Below are positions 51-47,511 of a DNA stretch of 64,000 nucleotides, piece after piece. A program made the translations under genes and the position numbers. Source of the stretch: Pseudochryseolinea flava (GTDB taxonomy: Bacteria > Bacteroidota > Bacteroidia > Cytophagales > Cyclobacteriaceae); the NCBI RefSeq assembly GCF_003286915.1, contig NZ_QMFY01000007.1, forward strand, positions 1 through 64,000. Direction: 5' to 3'. Below the pieces are notes generated by a model. It made no database searches and had not been told where the DNA came from. It worked only from the letters and a program-made list of their open reading frames with translations. Position 1 is the stretch's first letter; each line of letters opens with the position of its first letter.

Positions 51-305
51 ATGCTTCATGTTTTTTTTTATCACAAAGCAATACCTAATTTATGCGCCGG
101 TAAAGATGTAGTTGGTCGGGTGGATACCATGAACTACAGTTCAACGTTGAAAGTTTTCTTTAGTACTGTTAATTGGGTGAAGCGTGATAATGGCTCGATT
201 GTAATGTCCACTGAAATTGGTTTTGATCGAGATTGGTTTGAAGAACGGCTTGTGAATGTTGATACGGGTGAATTTGGTCAGTGTATTAGTGGTGGGCTCA
301 GATAA
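51..305 (+). CDS. hypothetical small protein, possibly a fragment
   Basis: This is a short open frame of 84 codons that I do not recognise. It opens immediately after an in-frame stop at 48-50, so nothing upstream in this frame belongs to it. A second Met at 129 would give a 58-residue protein (MNYSSTLKVFF...) and may be the real start. No signal peptide, membrane segment or domain motif is visible. It lies among short orphan frames at the window edge, so it could also be the end of a decayed gene. Coding status is uncertain. Confidence 0.3.
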   Translation: MLHVFFYHKAIPNLCAGKDVVGRVDTMNYSSTLKVFFSTVNWVKRDNGSIVMSTEIGFDRDWFEERLVNVDTGEFGQCISGGLR

Positions 306-520
306 ATGAACAGGCTTGATCTAACCATTGTTTGAGTAGAGCAGGGCGGAAGGAATGCACGACATGATAAATCCAGAAATATCAATTTGAAACTTCTGTT
401 TGCATCGATATCCGGCTCTTCAAATGACAGGTGAACCCTGGATGAACTTCATGATTGAAGACTTTATGAAAGTTATACTTGCAGAGGTTTCTGCAGCGAA
501 AAAGAAATGACTATTTAAAC

Positions 521-838
521 ATGACTGGCGATATTCCAGATTGGGTTAAAGATCTGTTGGATGATGAGGATCACTTTTGGAAAAGTATTTATCCATCCTA
601 TAGCTTTGACGAACGCGTGTTACACTGGTCGGGATCGCTACACCGACGGATGCGCTGGCAGGAGGAAAGTGGTTATGATCCGTATGCGATTTACAGCAAG
701 ACGTGGCACATGCAAGCGAAGGAACGCGAACCTCAAATCGATCTGATCATGGACAATGTCTTCGAAAAATATTGGAGCGGCACTGGCGGAAATTGGGATA
801 AATCAGAATATTTGAAGCGTATTGAAAAGAAATGGTAA
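521..838 (+). CDS. hypothetical acidic/aromatic-rich protein
   Basis: Orphan protein of 105 residues starting MTGDIPDWVKDLLDDED. I chose the ATG at 521 rather than the in-frame TTG at 479, because the TTG would add 14 residues that overlap another short frame (MTGEPWMNFM..., 424-510) ending just upstream. The protein is rich in Trp, Tyr, Asp and Glu, with no signal peptide or transmembrane segment, so it is probably cytosolic. I see no family motif. The company of other short orphan genes suggests an accessory region, for example a toxin-immunity type locus, but this is a guess from size and context only. Confidence 0.5.
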   Translation: MTGDIPDWVKDLLDDEDHFWKSIYPSYSFDERVLHWSGSLHRRMRWQEESGYDPYAIYSKTWHMQAKEREPQIDLIMDNVFEKYWSGTGGNWDKSEYLKRIEKKW

Positions 839-971
839 TGGAATAGTATTGGGCGATGCCCCGAAGAAGGTGGTTACAATCCGAAGAGAAGCGATACGTC
901 ACCGTTTATTACGAAAAAAAATGATTTGATCTTAACCACGGAAATCCAAATCGAAATGGAAGAATGGTACC

Positions 972-1394
972 ATGAAAACGGTTAACGAAGACCCGGCGCA
1001 AAACATAACGATGCTCATCATTATTATCAGTATTAATGTTATCAACGTTGTACTGATAATGGTAAAGGATCTTTCATTCCTTATCTTCACAATCTCTTTC
1101 CTGAGCATAAATATTTTCTACTATCTCGTATACGCAGGGCGGTTTCACAAATTTGCTTACGACGATAAGGATTTCATTGTAACAAACTCCTGGAACCCAT
1201 TTTCGCGAAATGAATTTAAGATCCATGAAATGAAAGATATCAAAATTGCCTACCACAATCGGGTAGGCCATGCGATAGAGTTTAACTATCGCCATGATCA
1301 TTTCATTTATCATTGTGCCTACATCCACCGTAGCGAACTGGAAAATATGATCACAGAACTAACAAGCCCAAGCACAAAACTAACTTCGAAGTGA
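972..1394 (+). CDS. two-helix membrane protein with soluble C-terminal domain
   Basis: Protein of 140 residues. Residues about 12-32 and 36-55 form two closely spaced hydrophobic helices, followed by a soluble region of about 80 residues ending in a basic helix. This layout (N-terminal hairpin plus a short beta-rich domain with an IKI...F.Y.....I.HCAYI pattern) resembles small bacterial PH-like/YcxB-type membrane proteins, but I see no diagnostic motif, so the family is a guess. Predicted to sit in the inner membrane with the soluble part in the cytoplasm. It stands alone, upstream of the convergent xylose regulator. Confidence 0.6.
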   Translation: MKTVNEDPAQNITMLIIIISINVINVVLIMVKDLSFLIFTISFLSINIFYYLVYAGRFHKFAYDDKDFIVTNSWNPFSRNEFKIHEMKDIKIAYHNRVGHAIEFNYRHDHFIYHCAYIHRSELENMITELTSPSTKLTSK

Positions 1395-1425
1395 GTGAAT
1401 TGGGAATTGTTATAGCATTCTAACC

Positions 1426-2121
1426 CTACAACTCAAACGTGAATCCCTTCTCTGTCAACTTATCGTAGATTTTTTTATCGAACCGATACAGACCCGCCGC
1501 GCGATGTGATACCGCAGTCTGCTTTTCCTTCAGGGGCTCAAGTAAGTTCATCTTCATGAGCTTTCGTCTGAAGTTGGGCTTATCAAGTTTTTGGTCTAGA
1601 ATTGCTTCGTACAATTCTTGCAGTTGAAGCAATGTGAATTTTTTCGGTAATAAATTAAAACCGATAGGTTCGTGTCGAACCTTATGTTTTAAGTAGGAGA
1701 GTCCGGCATCAAGAATGGTTCTGTGATCATACGGAAGTTCCGGAACCTCGCTGATCTTGAACCACTGTGCATCGGCAGCGGTAAAGCCTGGAAGCAGTGT
1801 GTAGTTCTCAGGTTTTACCAATGCATAGTAGGCAATCGTAATAACGCGTTTATCAGGATAACGATCAACGGTACCAAAACTTCTAAGTTGTTCGAGATAA
1901 ATATTCGATACGCCGGTAAGATCACTTAATAATCTGCCCGCAGCATCATCCGTACTTTCATTATACCGAATCCATCCGCCGGGAAGTGCCCACTTTCCTT
2001 TGCTGATACCCTCGCCGTGTTGTACAAGCAGGATGTCAAGCTCATTTTTCTTAAAGCCGAAAATCAGACAGTCAATGGAAAGGGCATCGATAATGGTTTC
2101 AGGAAAAGAATTTTTCTTCAT
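1426..2121 (-). CDS. Nudix-fold transcriptional regulator (NrtR/AraR type), likely xylose regulator
   Basis: Protein of 231 residues: an N-terminal Nudix-like domain (about 10-145) and a C-terminal winged-helix domain (about 150-231; LPKKFTLLQLQELYEAIL...NFRRKLMKM is the typical HTH of this family). The Nudix box is degenerate. The G-x5-E and the conserved Arg are present (GGWIRYNE...GR), but the following REUXEE glutamates are Leu, Asp and Leu, so it probably binds an effector rather than hydrolysing nucleotides. Such Nudix-related regulators control arabinose, xylose and NAD genes in Bacteroidota. It is divergent from xylB-xylA, with a 23-bp imperfect palindrome at 2161-2183 between them. 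Inferred role: local, autoregulated regulator of xylBA. Confidence 0.85.
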   Translation of the reverse strand: MKKNSFPETIIDALSIDCLIFGFKKNELDILLVQHGEGISKGKWALPGGWIRYNESTDDAAGRLLSDLTGVSNIYLEQLRSFGTVDRYPDKRVITIAYYALVKPENYTLLPGFTAADAQWFKISEVPELPYDHRTILDAGLSYLKHKVRHEPIGFNLLPKKFTLLQLQELYEAILDQKLDKPNFRRKLMKMNLLEPLKEKQTAVSHRAAGLYRFDKKIYDKLTEKGFTFEL

Positions 2122-2135
2122 AGGGCGGTCGATAG

Positions 2136-2165
2136 TTGACTGGAATAAAAAATGTGTTACCTTGT
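2136..2165 (+). promoter_or_regulatory. candidate xylBA promoter
   Basis: TTG at 2136-2138 and TACCTTGT at 2158-2165 are separated by 19 bp, the usual spacing of Bacteroidota promoters, although the -7 element departs from TAnnTTTG in its last positions. The operator palindrome overlaps its downstream edge, where a bound repressor would block initiation. Confidence 0.35.
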
Positions 2166-2183
2166 AGTCAAATTTACTATAAG
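2161..2183. promoter_or_regulatory. palindromic operator between regulator and xylBA
   Basis: Imperfect inverted repeat of 23 bp centred on 2172. The left arm CTTGTAGTCAA and right arm TTTACTATAAG pair at 9 of 11 positions. It overlaps candidate promoters for both divergent genes. Operators of Nudix-type sugar regulators in this phylum are long palindromes of similar size, so this is the best candidate site for the neighbouring regulator. Direct binding is inferred. Confidence 0.55.
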
Positions 2184-2200
2184 TTCGTTGGAAGTACCAA
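2169..2200 (-). promoter_or_regulatory. candidate promoter of the Nudix regulator
   Basis: On the reverse strand, TAAATTTG (2169-2176) matches the Bacteroidota -7 consensus TAnnTTTG, with TTG (2198-2200) 21 bp upstream. The -7 element lies inside the palindromic operator, which would allow autoregulation. Confidence 0.35.
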
Positions 2201-2222
2201 GCGGGCTTGAAATTAATAAACT

Positions 2223-3731
2223 ATGTCACAATACCTGCTAGGGTACGATCTCGGAAGTTCGTCAATTAAGGCTTCGTTGGTGGAAGTGTCTACCGGATTA
2301 ACGGTTGCGTCAGCGCAATCGCCGAATGAAGAAATGCCAATGATGGCGGTGCAACCTGGCTGGGCTGAACAAGATCCTGAGATGTGGTGGGAGCACGTTC
2401 AAAAAAGTACGCACGCGTGTTTGAAGAAAGCTAACGTGAATGGGTTGGACGTGCAAGCGATTGGCATCTCGTATCAGATGCATGGTTTGGTATGCGTTGA
2501 CAAAGATCAGCAGGTGTTGCGTCCTTCGATTATTTGGTGTGATAGCCGCGCCGTTAGCATTGGAAATGAAGCATTTAAATTACTCGGCGAACAATTTTGT
2601 TTAGAGCGATTATTGAACTCACCGGGAAATTTTACCGGTTCAAAATTGCGTTGGGTAAAACAAAACGAACCTCACGTTTTCGCAAAGGTTGATAAGATGA
2701 TGCTGCCAGGAGACTACCTTGCCATGAAATTGTCGGGTGATGTGGTAACTACTGCCAGCGGTCTTTCCGAAGGTGTCCTCTGGGATTATAGTCAAGAATC
2801 GCCTGCGGAGAAATTACTCGATCATTACGGTATATCGAAAGGACAACTGCCAACCATCGCTCCAACGTTTGGCATTCAAGGTAAACTTGCAACATCGGCG
2901 GCAACGCTCCTGGGGTTGAAAGCGGGGACACCAATCAGTTATCGGGCAGGAGATCAACCTAATAATGCATTCTCACTAAATGTTTTGAATCCAGGAGAAA
3001 CTGCTGCGACGGCAGGTACGTCAGGTGTGATTTATAGCGTGACGGATAAAAATGCGTTTGATCAGAAGTCGCGCGTGAATACGTTTGTTCACGTCAACAA
3101 TAAGTCGGTTGGAACGTCAAACAGTATTCGCAATGGTGTATTGCTTTGCATCAACGGAACAGGAATTCAGAATTCTTGGCTGAGGAAGAATTCAACAGGT
3201 GCTGGCGCCGCTTACGATTATGACAAAATCAATTCGATTGCAGCCACTGCGCCCATAGGATCGGACGGCTTAGTTGTTTTGCCTTTTGGAAATGGCGCAG
3301 AACGCGTGCTCGAAAATAGAAACATTGACGGCTCGTTCCATGGATTAAATTTCAACAGACACGGGCAGCCGCACTTGTTCCGCGCAGTGCAGGAAGGAAT
3401 TGTGTTTGCGCTGAAGTATGGCTTCGATGTGCTTCAAGAGATGGGTTTAAAAACAAATGTGATCCGCGCAGGAAATGCAAATATGTTTTTGAGTCCGTTG
3501 TTCCGAGAGGCCTTTGTCAATACAATAGGCGCGCAATTGGAATTATACGATACGGACGGAGCGAAGGGTGCTGCGTTAGGCGCTGGCGTAGGCGCGGGGA
3601 TCTATCAGTCATTCGAAGAAGCATTCAAAGGGTTGAAGAAGATTCGTACTGAGGAAGTGGACGCATCAAAGGCAGAGCAATATCAATCAGCATATAATAC
3701 TTGGTTAAATCAACTGAATAAACAATTATGA
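2223..3731 (+). CDS. xylB: xylulokinase
   Basis: FGGY-family kinase of 502 residues, the usual length for xylulokinase; it phosphorylates D-xylulose to xylulose 5-phosphate in the cytoplasm. The N-terminal FGGY domain begins with the phosphate-binding loop [13 protein letters not shown]. Substrate-side residues follow in [10 protein letters not shown] and IIWCDSRA. The C-terminal FGGY domain starts near [14 protein letters not shown] and carries TAGTSGVIY and a glycine-rich adenine-binding stretch ([11 protein letters not shown]). Its stop overlaps the xylA start by four bases (ATGA at 3728-3731), implying translational coupling. Pairing with xylose isomerase makes xylulose the expected substrate over other FGGY sugars. 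Confidence 0.95.
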
Positions 3732-7075: not shown

Positions 7076-8233
7076 ATGAGCAAAAAGTTACGCATGGGCA
7101 TGATCGGCGGAAGCACAGAAGCTTTCATCGGCGCCGTTCACCGCAAAGCAGCTGCCCTCGATGGAGAGATCGAACTCGTCTGTGGAGCATTCAGCAGTGA
7201 TCCAAAAAAATCAAAAGCCACCGGTCAAGCATTATACATCGATCCAAAAAGGGTGTATGCCAGCTACGCCGAAATGATCGAACAGGAAAAGTTGCTGCCT
7301 GAAAATGAACGCATGCAGTTCGTGTCGATCGTTACACCGAACCACGTTCATCTTGCCCCCGCACAAATGGCACTTGAAAATGGATTCCATGTTATCATTG
7401 ATAAACCGCTTGCGTTCTCTCTAGCGGAAGCAAAGACACTTCGTAAAGTCGTTGAAAAATCAGGATTGGTTTTAGCCTTGACCCATACCTACACGGGTTA
7501 CCCCATGGTGAAAGAAGCAAGACAGCTTGTGAAGCAGGGTAAAATTGGAAAGGTCCGTAAGGTATACGTCGAGTATCACCAAGGGTGGCTCACAAATTTC
7601 ATCGAAGGAAATAATAAGCAAGCCAGTTGGAGAACTGATCCGAAGCGATCTGGACTGGGTGGTGCAATAGGCGATATTGGAACACATGCCGCAAACTTAG
7701 CGGAATACATTTCAGGACTAGAAATTGCAGAGATTAGCGCAGATCTCAATATTGTGGTGAAAGGACGCCAATTGGATGATGATAGCGCGATGTTACTTCG
7801 TTTCAACAACGGCGCAACGGGGATCCTATCCGCAACACAAATTGCAGCAGGTGAAGAAAATAATCACAACATCAGAATTTACGGTGACAAAGGCGCGATC
7901 GTTTGGCGTCAAGAAGAACCGAACACACTTTTGGTGCGCGTCTACGGCAAGCCGAATGAAGTTTATCGCACAGGCTGGGATTATCTATCCGACGCCGCGA
8001 AACTGAATACGCGTACGCCTTGGGGACATCCTGAAGGATACCTTGAAGCATTCGCCAATCTCTACCTTGCTTTTGGTCGCGCTGTTCGTGCATGGAAACC
8101 TGGCAAAAAAATCGATCCTGTAAAATTCGACTTTCCAGATGTAAACGATGGCGTTCGCGGAATGGCCTTTGTCGAAACGGTGATCAAGTCTGCAAACTCC
8201 AATAGAAAGTGGACGAAGTTTAAGGGAGAATAA
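7076..8233 (+). CDS. Gfo/Idh/MocA family oxidoreductase
   Basis: NAD(P)-dependent sugar or inositol dehydrogenase of 385 residues. The N-terminal Rossmann fold begins LRMGMIGGSTEAFIGAVHR, and the family motif appears as IIDKPLAFS with the Lys of the E/DKP signature. The C-terminal alpha/beta domain contains the GGAIGDIGTHAANLAEY segment with the catalytic Asp-x3-His. Expected to oxidise a sugar hydroxyl in the cytoplasm. It is followed, across an inserted four-helix-bundle gene, by a sugar phosphate isomerase/epimerase, a common operon partner. The exact sugar is not predictable. Confidence 0.9.
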   Translation: MSKKLRMGMIGGSTEAFIGAVHRKAAALDGEIELVCGAFSSDPKKSKATGQALYIDPKRVYASYAEMIEQEKLLPENERMQFVSIVTPNHVHLAPAQMALENGFHVIIDKPLAFSLAEAKTLRKVVEKSGLVLALTHTYTGYPMVKEARQLVKQGKIGKVRKVYVEYHQGWLTNFIEGNNKQASWRTDPKRSGLGGAIGDIGTHAANLAEYISGLEIAEISADLNIVVKGRQLDDDSAMLLRFNNGATGILSATQIAAGEENNHNIRIYGDKGAIVWRQEEPNTLLVRVYGKPNEVYRTGWDYLSDAAKLNTRTPWGHPEGYLEAFANLYLAFGRAVRAWKPGKKIDPVKFDFPDVNDGVRGMAFVETVIKSANSNRKWTKFKGE

Positions 8234-8265
8234 ATTACGAGGCAATGGGAGTGGGGTATTGGGAA

Positions 8266-8349
8266 TTAGGACTTGGGAATTAGGACTTGGGTATTAGGAC
8301 TTGGGTATTAGGACTTGGGTATTAGGACTTGGGTATTAGGACTTGGGCA
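8266..8349. repeat. left heptamer array, six 14-bp units
   Basis: Six tandem copies of TTAGGACTTGGGTA (first with AA in place of TA, last with CA), preceded by an imperfect GGGGTATTGGGAA lead from about 8252. Each unit is two heptads, TTAGGAC and TTGGGTA, so a GG or GGG run recurs every 7 bases on the + strand, like telomeric repeats. It ends about 100 bp before the four-helix-bundle gene. Confidence 0.95.
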
Positions 8350-8452
8350 TAGGCAATATTTGTCGGGATGTAGTATGCTGAGTTAAGTATTTAGGACTGA
8401 TTTGCAAATCTGTCCACCGTTATAAGTTTATTTTTACATAAACCGTTGTGTT

Positions 8453-8854
8453 ATGATTTCAAGACTAGAAGATTTTAGAGCTTACAATTGTGCTATGGAG
8501 CTAGGAGAAAATGTTTGGCAAGTTGTTACGAAGTGGAAGTACTTTGACAAAAGTACAATCGGACAACAACTCGTAACTGCGGTTGATTCCGTAGCAGCAA
8601 ACCTTTCTGAAGGACTAGGGAGATATCATTTTAGAGAGACAAAGAATCTAACGTATTATTCACGCGGATCTCTTTTCGAAACAAAAACGTGGCTTACCAA
8701 AGCTCACACCAGACAATTGATCAGTGACGACCAATTCGTGAAATTCATCGAAACCATCGAACTCCTAGGTAAGATGATCAATAGCTACATCAAAACGCTA
8801 GGAAATTTTAAGGAATCTAGTTTAAACGATAGAACCATCGAACCCTATACCTAA
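8453..8854 (+). CDS. four-helix bundle protein (23S rRNA intervening-sequence / Avd-like family)
   Basis: Protein of 133 residues, helical throughout, with the signatures of the S23/four-helix-bundle family: an initial DFRAY..A.EL...VW segment, IGQQLVTAVDSVAANLSEGLGRYHF in the second helix, and a C-terminal helix pair with DDQFVKFIETIELLGKMINSYI. Relatives are encoded in 23S rRNA intervening sequences and, as Avd, accompany diversity-generating retroelements, where they bind reverse transcriptase and nucleic acid. No reverse transcriptase is visible here. The gene interrupts a sugar-oxidation operon and is bracketed by G-rich heptamer arrays in opposite orientation, which suggests that gene and arrays form one inserted unit. 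Confidence 0.9.
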   Translation: MISRLEDFRAYNCAMELGENVWQVVTKWKYFDKSTIGQQLVTAVDSVAANLSEGLGRYHFRETKNLTYYSRGSLFETKTWLTKAHTRQLISDDQFVKFIETIELLGKMINSYIKTLGNFKESSLNDRTIEPYT

Positions 8855-8866
8855 CACCACATACCT

Positions 8867-8929
8867 AATACCTAAAGCCCAATGCCGAATACCTAAAGCC
8901 CAATACCGAATACCTAAAGCCCAATACCA
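8867..8929. repeat. right heptamer array, three 21-bp units
   Basis: Three tandem 21-bp units, each made of heptads AATACCT, AAAGCCC and AATACCG (the first unit has AATGCCG as its third heptad, the last AATACCA), with trailing partial copies to about 8940. Read on the - strand the units are G-rich (GGGCTTT, AGGTATT, CGGTATT). The array is therefore roughly an inverted counterpart of the one at 8266. Confidence 0.95.
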
Positions 8930-8951
8930 AATACCAAACAATAGAACATCA

Positions 8952-10010
8952 ATGAGTTTAAAAACAATAAAAGGCCCTGGGATTTTCCTGGCGCAATTCA
9001 TGGGAGATCAACCTCCGTTCGACAATCTCAAAACGATTTGCAAGTGGGCGAAGTCACTCGGCTTTGTTGGTGTACAACTACCAACTTGGGATAGCCGCGT
9101 AATCGACTTGAAAAAAGCCGCTGAAAGCAAAGACTACTGCGAAGATCTGAAGGGGACGATTGAGTCTGCAGGACTTCAAATCACAGAACTTTCAACGCAC
9201 CTTCAAGGGCAGCTTGTGGCGTCGCATCCGGCCTACAACGAGTTGTTCGATGGGTTTGCACCGAAAGCAATTCGCGGAAATTATAAGGAGAGAACGGCCT
9301 GGGCTGTTGAACAATTAAAGTATGCTGCAAAGGCAAGTAAGAATCTTGGATTAAATGCGCATGCTACTTTTTCCGGTGCGCTCATGTGGCATACGGTGTA
9401 CCCTTGGCCACAACGTCCTGCGGGGCTAGTAGATGATGGCTTTAAGGAACTCGCGAAACGTTGGCTTCCAATACTAAATGCGTTCGATAAAGCCGGTGTT
9501 GATGTTTGCTATGAAATTCATCCGGGTGAAGATCTTCATGACGGTATCACCTTCGAAAGATTCTGGGAAGCAACAGGAAAGCATACGCGTGCAAATATTC
9601 TGTACGATCCGAGTCACTTTGTACTGCAGCAACTTGATTACTTACAATATATCGACTTCTATCATTCATTCATCAAGATGTTCCATGTGAAGGATGCTGA
9701 ATTTAATCCTTCAGGAAAATCTGGCGTCTACGGCGGGTATCAAGATTGGATCAATCGTCCAGGGAGATTCCGGTCGCTTGGCGATGGACAAGTTGATTTC
9801 AAATCGATCTTTAGTAAATTAACGCAGTACGGATATGACGGATGGGCTGTGCTGGAGTGGGAGTGTTGCATCAAACATCCAGAGCAAGGCGCGGCAGAAG
9901 GAGCTCCTTTTATCAAGGATCACATCATTCGCGTAACGGAAAAAGCATTCGATGATTTTGCGTCAGCTGGTGTTGATCAAAAGCTCAATAAGCGCGTGCT
10001 TGGCTTGTAA
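8952..10010 (+). CDS. sugar phosphate isomerase/epimerase (AP endonuclease 2 / IolE-like TIM barrel)
   Basis: TIM-barrel protein of 352 residues. Metal and substrate ligands are visible in order: Glu in CYEIHPGED, Asp and His in LYDPSHF, His in KMFHVKDAEF, and the C-terminal Glu in AVLEWECC. This family isomerises or epimerises sugars and inositols using a divalent metal, or hydrates/dehydrates keto-sugars. It likely acts on the product of the Gfo/Idh dehydrogenase upstream; the two would be neighbours if the four-helix-bundle insertion were absent. It is followed by a cytochrome c gene 37 bp downstream. Confidence 0.88.
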   Translation: MSLKTIKGPGIFLAQFMGDQPPFDNLKTICKWAKSLGFVGVQLPTWDSRVIDLKKAAESKDYCEDLKGTIESAGLQITELSTHLQGQLVASHPAYNELFDGFAPKAIRGNYKERTAWAVEQLKYAAKASKNLGLNAHATFSGALMWHTVYPWPQRPAGLVDDGFKELAKRWLPILNAFDKAGVDVCYEIHPGEDLHDGITFERFWEATGKHTRANILYDPSHFVLQQLDYLQYIDFYHSFIKMFHVKDAEFNPSGKSGVYGGYQDWINRPGRFRSLGDGQVDFKSIFSKLTQYGYDGWAVLEWECCIKHPEQGAAEGAPFIKDHIIRVTEKAFDDFASAGVDQKLNKRVLGL

Positions 10011-46575: not shown

Positions 46576-47511
46576 TTATTGTTCTGGATAAGTATTGATC
46601 GTAGACCAGCTGGACGTTCCATTGTAAGAAACTTGCCAGAGGCTTCCTGTAGGATTGAATACATCAGAAATGCCATCATTATTGAAGTCCCCTGGCTCGA
46701 GGTTTATACCAATAGACGATTCAGGGTTTCTTACGATAGTCCAGTTGTTAACGGCATCGTAAGAAATTTGCCACCAGTTGCCCGTACCTACAAGCACGTC
46801 TGATTTGCCGTTGCCATCGTAGTCACCGATAACCATGTCTTTAGCAGTAGCCACTGAATAAGGGCCAAGCACCCACGAAGATGCAGCGCCATAAGAAAAC
46901 TGCCAGCGTGATCCAGTGCCGACTAATACGTCGTCTTTGCCATCGCCATTGTAGTCACCGATTGCCATGTCATAAGCTACGGCTGCAGAGTACGGACCGA
47001 GTACCCATGACGATGTAGCACTGTAAGAAATTTGCCAACGCGATCCAGTACCCACCAGTACGTCGTCTTTTCCATCGCCGTTGTAGTCACCGATTGCCAT
47101 ATCTTTTGCAACAGACACGGTGTAAGGACCGAGTACCCATGATGACGTCGCACTGTAAGAAATCTGCCAACGTGATCCTGTGCCCACGATCACATCGTCT
47201 TTTCCATCGCCGTTGAAATCTCCGATGGCCATGTCTTTCGCACGTGCCGATGTATAGGTCGTGTATACGTAAGGTGTGTTGCCGCCGTAAGAAATTCTCC
47301 AGCGTGAACCAGTGGCATGGAGAACGTCTGTGTAACCATCACCATTAAAGTCGCCGAGCTTGAGATTACTGCTCGTTCCGAAACGCGCTAACGTTTCCGC
47401 ATTGGCTACTTCCTTTGGTGTTTCTTTTTTCACAACCGCTGGTTCTTCTTCAGAACATGACCAAGCCACGGATGCTAAGAGCGCGAACGCAACAACTTTT
47501 AGATTTTTCAT
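46576..47511 (-). CDS. FG-GAP/VCBS repeat lipoprotein
   Basis: Protein of 311 residues with a lipoprotein leader ending SVAWSC followed by SEEEP; acidic residues right after the lipid Cys resemble the Bacteroidota surface-export signal, so it is probably on the cell surface. The body consists of about six copies of a 44-residue repeat built round DYNGDGKDDVLVGTGSRW, a calcium-binding FG-GAP/integrin-alpha-like blade, each followed by QISYSATSSWVLGPY. Central copies are almost identical at the DNA level with a 132-bp period, suggesting recent tandem duplication or gene conversion. Possible adhesin; ligand unknown. Confidence 0.85.
   Translation of the reverse strand: MKNLKVVAFALLASVAWSCSEEEPAVVKKETPKEVANAETLARFGTSSNLKLGDFNGDGYTDVLHATGSRWRISYGGNTPYVYTTYTSARAKDMAIGDFNGDGKDDVIVGTGSRWQISYSATSSWVLGPYTVSVAKDMAIGDYNGDGKDDVLVGTGSRWQISYSATSSWVLGPYSAAVAYDMAIGDYNGDGKDDVLVGTGSRWQFSYGAASSWVLGPYSVATAKDMVIGDYDGNGKSDVLVGTGNWWQISYDAVNNWTIVRNPESSIGINLEPGDFNNDGISDVFNPTGSLWQVSYNGTSSWSTINTYPEQ

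Follow-up and report, generated by a model that had tools for sequence, protein, structure and literature searches.

Described systems closest to the element

The intervening sequence (IVS) in the 23S rRNA of Coxiella burnetii has heptameric repeats 5′ of its S23p ORF, and its 28-bp inverted-repeat stem closes a loop with this ORF, with excision by RNase III, according to Warrier 2016 (PMC4990558). A mobile origin of rRNA-resident IVSs has likewise been proposed, and PMC11270868 reports the bundle family in rRNA insertions of CPR bacteria. The element described here shares with the Coxiella IVS the protein family, the terminal inverted repeats round the ORF, and the heptamers (PMC4990558). The Coxiella IVS lies in 23S rRNA, as does one collected element (L202), whereas the window copy lies between two protein genes and not within an rRNA gene. 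The window element also differs from the Coxiella IVS (PMC4990558) in its long arrays at both ends and in its element-specific heptad. The anatomy of heptads and inverted repeats is already in print for an rRNA-resident element, namely the Coxiella IVS. Complementary ends that close a loop with an S23p-type ORF, which mark an IVS, are present in the window element by flank match and predicted fold.

RAYTs are Y1/HUH transposases, and REPs are palindromic repeats. In contrast, the window element has a four-helix bundle instead of a Y1/HUH transposase and 7-bp tandem arrays instead of palindromic REPs. The likeness to REPIN/RAYT systems (PMC3116915, PMC8049555) is a gene within inverted repeats that recur ORF-less genome-wide, some as close inverted pairs. 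This ORF-less recurrence of flanking repeats is seen in the window's own genome and in one proteobacterial genome (G411), and is weak in another bundle-bearing genome (G023).

Dispersed heptamers such as GGGAATC of Xanthomonas (PMC4692102) and TAACTGA of Beggiatoaceae (PMC4679880) are intergenic 7-bp arrays as found here. Rehm et al. 2015 (PMC4692102) give 186 GGGAATC arrays and 70 close convergent array pairs in Xanthomonas campestris; for two Xanthomonas genomes the counts of such pairs are 70 and 75. Heptad over-representation in bacteria is reported, and slippage proposed for it, in PMC4679880. No bundle protein is named as four helix, S23 or 23S in PMC4692102, or as four helix or 23S in PMC4679880. 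Exact-term searches of the open-access literature gave no account of operon bundle genes with inverted heptad arms, of element-specific heptads, or of a link between bundle genes and dispersed heptamers.

Layout of the window locus

The window is a stretch of 64,000 nucleotides of Pseudochryseolinea flava (contig NZ_QMFY01000007.1). Its element occupies a 718-bp gap between two host genes on one strand, beginning after the stop codon (8233) of a Gfo/Idh/MocA dehydrogenase gene (7076–8233, + strand; Pfam PF01408, PF02894, PF22725) and finishing before the start codon (8952) of an AP_endonuc_2-type sugar isomerase gene (8952–10010, + strand; PF01261, E 4e-38). The left array (8259–8347) is G-rich on the + strand and has a 14-bp unit of two heptads (TTGGGTA TTAGGAC), with 6.4 copies, 98% matches and a score of 164 in TRF. 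A spacer or 5′ untranslated stretch (8348–8452, + strand) ends with ACCGTTGTGTT at 8442–8452, immediately 5′ of the ATG of the four-helix-bundle gene (8453–8854, + strand), a member of the 23S rRNA-intervening sequence protein family. The right array (8847–8935) is G-rich on the − strand, has a 21-bp unit of three heptads with a 7-bp sub-period (TRF: 4.2 copies, 88% matches, score 129), and covers the last ORF codons (overlap 8847–8854). Among 500 block-shuffles of this gap, none scored above 58 in TRF, against 164 and 129 observed. The right array is the inverted partner of the left one: their local match scores 34, and the 99% level of mismatched pairs is 17.5.

These values, together with the sets of loci described below, agree with a sequence-only reading of the window in which strict 7-bp arrays, with 14-bp units on the left, form a degenerate inverted repeat that belongs to the bundle gene. 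Its three 21-bp units on the right have to be corrected to about four, reaching into the last ORF codons. The G-rich orientation that it described is general, left arms of 56 elements containing 708 G vs 273 C. Its term "telomere-like" was rejected because the heptads differ between elements.

The 14-bp unit, with at most one mismatch, has eight genome hits, six of them in the window array and two lone elsewhere (reversed control 3). The sequence-only reading had suggested this genome search; related heptad arrays occur elsewhere in the genome. By eye, most of the other bundle elements with arrays in this genome also have a near-copy of ACCGTTGTGTT a short distance 5′ of the gene. The 11-mer has no genome-wide enrichment (120 and 110 hits vs 110 and 115 for reversed controls), and Rfam gives no family at E 1 for window positions 8000–9200. 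Elsewhere in the window, a unit of 132 bp is repeated in tandem at 46804–47242 (3.3 copies, 79%); this array may lie inside a coding region.

The bundle protein

The window ORF encodes 133 amino acids and matches PF05635 (E 4e-22, 78.8 bits vs a curated cut-off of 33.8) and TIGR02436 "four helix bundle protein" (E 2e-22, 79.4 bits vs a cut-off of 24). The AlphaFold2 model consists of four helices with a pLDDT of 92.5, in line with the identity first assigned from the letters alone. It matches 2GSC (XCC0516) and 2RLD (BT_0352) with a TM-score (target) of 0.84–0.92 for the ten chains listed. These two homologous entries comprise five chains apiece, and by homology the window protein may be pentameric. 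PF05635 is the sole domain in the ORF, which has no transposase domain and no Y1/HUH. The dN/dS values are 0.01–0.16 in the 10 of 15 hand-picked gene pairs with finite dS, which points to purifying selection on the bundle gene. No match to one bundle protein used as query was found in phages.

The fold is shared with Avd of diversity-generating retroelements, to which the model has a weaker resemblance (4DWL, 8UB7; Foldseek E 0.01–0.2). With the NCBIfam Avd model, the window protein gives no match at E 0.001, and three relatives score under the cut-off of the model. The Avd-like fold and the presence of three Y1_Tnp and two RVT_1 matches in the same genome speak for an element moved by another enzyme, either a Y1/HUH transposase or a reverse transcriptase, with the bundle protein as cargo or as an accessory like Avd. 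However, on inspection of the counts, genomes with more Y1_Tnp matches do not visibly have more bundle genes, as one genome (G019) has 28 Y1 with 2 bundle genes and another (G009) has 0 Y1 with 5. The two RVT_1 matches lie on contigs C45 and C14, and the window lies on C46, where no RVT_1 match was found, as the sequence-only reading had stated. Movement by such an enzyme is considered improbable. As candidates in their own right, a Y1 transposase as driver was rejected on the copy numbers, and a diversity-generating retroelement on the lack of a reverse transcriptase on the contig.

Avd-like matches were also noticed in a 1.5 Mb proteobacterial genome (G369), which has ten that are near-identical (C1:6182–88316 and 1415307–1422824). 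The seven loci fetched from it (L425–L431) share identical stretches of 0.5–2.3 kb. By eye, these genes are located 3′ of a gene ending like the variable protein of a diversity-generating retroelement and 5′ of an apparent reverse transcriptase start. They look like Avd genes of a multiplied diversity-generating retroelement, and inspection of four of their flanks revealed no heptads.

Recurrence of heptad-armed bundle genes

The own genome (G000) contains eight PF05635 genes. Reading of their flanks shows that seven have heptad arms, every one with a different heptad, and all seven exceed the 95% level of an inverted-arm test. This test compares a left flank with the reverse-complemented right flank of the same gene, and its levels come from mismatched pairs within each set (95% levels 14.0, 17.0 and 14.5 for sets 1, 2 and 3). 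Set 1 comprises 97 loci of the own genome and its relatives with 98 genes, 95 of them usable; 64/95 are above the 95% level and 46 above the 99% level in inverted orientation, and the median self-match is 17.5 vs 9.5 in mismatched pairs. Set 2 comprises 88 named loci, of which 8 come from plasmids and 80 from the genome collection, the latter all being the best hits of a single query protein; of the 101 usable genes (of 105), 60 pass the 95% level and 27 also the 99% level. Set 3 comprises 39 loci, the best-scoring ones of a proteobacterial class sample and those of six named genomes, with 30 of the 40 usable genes (of 42) above the 95% level and 17 above the 99% level. The sets partly overlap, as at least five set-3 genes repeat set-2 genes (L388, L390–L393) and the protein of L210 is the same as that of L021. 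About a third of the bundle genes fail the test, for example those beside tRNA genes.

The flanks of set 1 have an autocorrelation at lag 7 of 0.332 upstream and 0.344 downstream, vs 0.251 in DNA at least 500 bp off. Peaks occur at lags 7, 14 and 21, and are absent from the genes and from DNA 500 bp away; sets 2 and 3 behave likewise. The window element is one case of a general element that recurs across several bacterial phyla, and each element has its own heptad, matched at both ends. Heptad arrays repeatedly flank bundle genes, a point that the sequence-only reading had put forward for checking.

The same tests bear on a passive origin, in which slippage-born heptads accumulate in intergenic DNA, template switching homogenises the arms, and the bundle gene merely happens to be among them. 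A slippage proposal for bacterial heptads is in print (PMC4679880) and lends this account some support. Against it, the control family PF00903 has no flank signal, with 0/27 usable genes (of 30 loci) above the level and a top score of 12.5 vs 14.0. Arms are inverted far more often than direct, 64 vs 16 of 95 at the 95% level (11 direct ones pass the 99% level), and period 7 dominates both the flanks and the own-genome arrays. A purely passive origin is improbable.

Several minor features accompany these loci. In some arrays the period is 8 bp instead of 7 bp (L289:2827–2922, L043), e.g. in the inverted pair AGTGTTCA/TGAACACT. Flank lags 8 and 15 are slightly raised, lag 8 in set 1 to 0.297 and 0.294. 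The eighth own-genome gene, L016, lies apparently between two tRNA genes and is without arrays. Together with L044, L045 and L104 it represents, in several genomes of the window's genus, a bundle gene that lies by eye 3′ of a tRNA gene, with tRNA genes on both sides in three of the four printed flanks, and that is without arrays and strongly conserved. This tRNA-linked gene is perhaps a domesticated copy. Two contigs titled Limnohabitans and Methanophagales (L228, L271) have bundle genes very like those of Bacteroidota, and are perhaps misbinned MAG contigs.

Joint change of the arms and RNA pairing

The two arms of an element change together, even among elements that share one site. At fadB|fadA, own arms match better than those of same-site others in 31/32 usable elements (of 35; Wilcoxon p 1e-9), at fadA|acd in 18/19 (of 20; p 8e-6), and at metH|metF in 5/6 (of 7; p 0.06), these p-values being not of independent draws because the elements share descent and L258 is counted twice at fadA|acd. 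The corresponding count at mraZ|rsmH is 3/3, and at the agmatine-deiminase site none of 4 is usable.

In the predicted RNA fold of the window element, the two arrays are base-paired with each other along most of their extent, with the ORF enclosed between them, at an MFE of −198.6 kcal/mol and z −9.4 (20 shuffles). Self-duplexes average −52.9 kcal/mol vs −39.4 kcal/mol for swapped arms, and 31/96 are under the 5% level of the swapped ones. Arm mismatches of 56 elements have no pooled G-U-tolerant bias (110 vs 96, p 0.37). Counted by element, G-U-tolerant mismatches prevail in 28 and the opposite in 13. Sense duplexes of arm pairs are no stronger than antisense duplexes. The candidate processes for keeping the arms alike are RNA pairing, cruciform DNA, gene conversion, and copying in transposition.

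Proposed mode of action

The preferred reading, at a probability of about one half, is that the window unit belongs to the IVS-type insertion elements and works in the manner of REPIN/RAYT, with a bundle protein that recognises the heptads and arms that form an RNA stem. The element would consist of a single four-helix-bundle gene with an array of its own heptad on either side, the two arrays being inverted. By analogy with RAYT and REPINs, the pentamer would recognise these heptads and act in trans to maintain and spread both the elements and the ORF-less arrays. In RNA, the arms may pair as a long stem that separates the insert from the host transcript, and RNase III may excise the insert in the way reported for the 23S IVS of Coxiella (PMC4990558). 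With such a stem and excision by RNase III, an element would cost its host little in an operon or an rRNA gene. Movement of the DNA is probably due to a host enzyme.

A wider and more tentative proposal is that bundle proteins of the IVS-protein family are the missing partners of scattered heptamers, with one heptad family per gene, one subunit per heptad, and ORF-less heptad hairpins maintained in trans. Such elements would be a transposase-free counterpart of REPIN/RAYT, and the 23S IVSs their rRNA-resident members. Three separate puzzles would thereby be linked: a protein family that is widespread but has no known function, rRNA IVSs of unsettled origin, and unexplained 7-bp repeats, which are abundant in Xanthomonas, cyanobacteria and Bacteroidota. 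A predicted binding site for each bundle gene can be read from its own flanks, so that the function of the family is directly testable.

Host sites and empty sites

Both neighbours were identified mechanically for 191/203 bundle genes. The sites include nuoF|nuoG and mraZ|rsmH, as well as metH|metF, fadB|fadA and fadA|acyl-CoA dehydrogenase, names that are presumed from the translations. In two cyanobacterial plasmids (L196, L200), heptad-flanked bundle genes are located at cas6|cas4 of type I-D CRISPR-Cas operons. Another site is the gap 3′ of a gene for a TraM-recognition-domain protein, and in a Nostoc plasmid the bundle gene lies between two ribonucleotide reductase genes, opposite to their direction. 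The relation to rRNA IVS proteins that was assumed for the window gene is strengthened by L202 on the Azospirillum lipoferum plasmid AZO_p2, where a related bundle gene (about 1501–1836) lies inside a 23S rRNA gene (Rfam match 286–3336). Inverted heptads were seen by eye in L202, and its automatic self-match of 10.0 is under the 95% level.

At gfo|isomerase, the two genes form an adjacent pair in 22/30 fetched loci (one pair twice, L191 and L194), and the bundle gene is present in the window only. The gaps, measured between tblastn match ends, are at most 54 bp in 10 of the 22 and 81–289 bp in the rest. Two same-genus genomes have gaps of 30–31 bp and no bundle gene. Four others have gaps of 156–203 bp, which are too short for the gene and in which an inverted remnant with a different heptad can be recognised by eye. 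At mraZ|rsmH, the gene is present in 4/30 loci, the gap is 1–57 bp in 22 and 89 and 102 bp in two, and the remaining 2/30 have a remnant of 183–186 bp, part of which is similar to the gene's end. Elements are thus gained or lost at orthologous gaps.

The unit separates Gfo/Idh from the isomerase as an insertion would, in agreement with the sequence-only reading. Of the comparison that it proposed, empty loci were found in relatives; a target duplication is not definable at the compared loci because the gaps do not align by eye. Conservation at an orthologous position, which it had named as evidence against an insertion, occurs in part, as six genomes of one family hold the gene at metH|metF.

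The retention of the gene in these six genomes also favours a domesticated operon regulator, in which bundle protein and inverted arrays are a post-transcriptional device for the host, with a stem, an RNase III site and autoregulation through heptad binding, and in which selection for pairing keeps the arms matched. Further points for it are the strong purifying selection on the protein, the stable predicted stem, the by-element prevalence of G-U-tolerant mismatches, and the position of 150/191 genes between two genes of their own direction, vs co-directional neighbours in 128/191 ordinary gaps sampled in the own genome. In contrast, the sites are unrelated host operons, rRNA and plasmids, once with the gene opposite to its neighbours, and the gene is absent in same-genus members with gaps of 14 or 30–31 bp. 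There is also no pooled G-U bias, and pairing has no strand preference. Regulation for the benefit of the host is considered a rather unlikely function of the unit.

Probable repeated origins at shared sites

A FastTree analysis of all 194 usable proteins, with site groups fixed before the trees, gives 19 label changes for fadB|fadA (34 rows), 12 for fadA|acd (16 rows), 2 for metH|metF (7 rows), 2 for mraZ|rsmH (3 rows) and 1 for the agmatine-deiminase site (3 rows). A subset of 63 rows for AU tests includes 22/34 fadB|fadA rows, 10/16 fadA|acd rows and 24 hand-picked others, one long row having been dropped. In this subset, AU tests chosen after seeing the trees reject a single origin for metH|metF (p 0.0043) and for fadB|fadA (p 1.4e-5). 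The starred branches taken by themselves are compatible with a single origin at every site; 27/59 inner branches are open, and site labels are clustered, with 8 changes vs 13.0 shuffled for fadB|fadA and 2 vs 6.5 for metH|metF. Gene conversion between paralogues could also obscure the branching. At metH|metF, the copy in Mucilaginibacter has as its tree neighbour a bundle gene located at a different site (SH-aLRT 98); its heptad is different as well, and its 33-bp arms are near-perfect. The tree tests speak for separate insertions at a shared gap, and together with the empty gfo|isomerase gaps they suggest that the insertion reading stands despite shared sites. Against the preferred reading, the own genome has no near-identical element copies, the best pair having 46% identity.

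ORF-less arrays and their heptads

A 400 kb sample of the own genome contains none of the eight bundle genes. A strict array detector gave few period-7 arrays (G000 8, G033 2, G023 3, G018 0, G016 0), and TRF was used instead. It finds 29 arrays of the 7-bp family in the own-genome sample vs 1–10 for other base periods. Without a length floor there are 31, of which 29/31 are intergenic although the DNA is 88% coding, a distribution that also agrees with passive slippage in intergenic DNA. Nine have an inverted copy and seven a direct copy within 600 bp. Among the other genomes with bundle genes, G023 has 21 arrays and G033 has 7; without the length floor, 11/22 arrays of G023 overlap ORFs and 2 have an inverted copy. 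Where no PF05635 gene was found, G018 has 1 array and G016 has 7 per 400 kb. A link between array density and gene presence is only suggestive, because G016 has as many arrays as G033.

The 29 own-genome arrays match the arms of the seven own bundle elements with a mean of 16.8, vs 10.7 (sd 1.1) for equal-sized foreign arm sets, the top of 40 sets being 12.9. The own genome's dispersed ORF-less arrays have heptads similar to those of its own bundle elements. In G033 (7 arrays; 3 elements of 5 fetched), own arms give 11.7 vs 9.4 for foreign ones (sd 0.84, highest 11.0). In G023 (21 arrays, 6 elements) there is no clear difference, with 11.05 vs 10.15 (sd 0.59, highest 11.81). Arrays occurring mostly without the gene, which the sequence-only reading had counted against a mobile unit, are found in part, as the 29 lie in gene-free DNA, but their heptads resemble those of the own bundle elements.

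PF05635 matches occur in 77 of 369 genomes of a proteobacterial class, 71 of them above the cut-off. The exact 19-base GGGAATC pattern occurs in 1/369 genomes, G411, with 8 hits in about five arrays that include a close inverted pair. The PF05635 match of G411 has GGGAATC-type arms on both sides, and its neighbours are presumed from their translated ends to be accB and accC. This match covers profile positions 1–64 of 106, and the gene may therefore be broken. The reversed control pattern by luck hit G199 seven times, and the bundle gene of that genome is flanked by heptads similar to this pattern, AAGGGCC/GAGGGCT; G411 and G199 are two cases and not a statistic. The agreement of dispersed heptads with own bundle arms in G000 and G411 argues against passive repeats and is consistent with upkeep of ORF-less arrays by the bundle protein of an IVS-type element. 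An ORF-less inverted array pair with heptads like those of the window element, its arrays 21 bp apart, is present in the own genome at L303:17149–17285.
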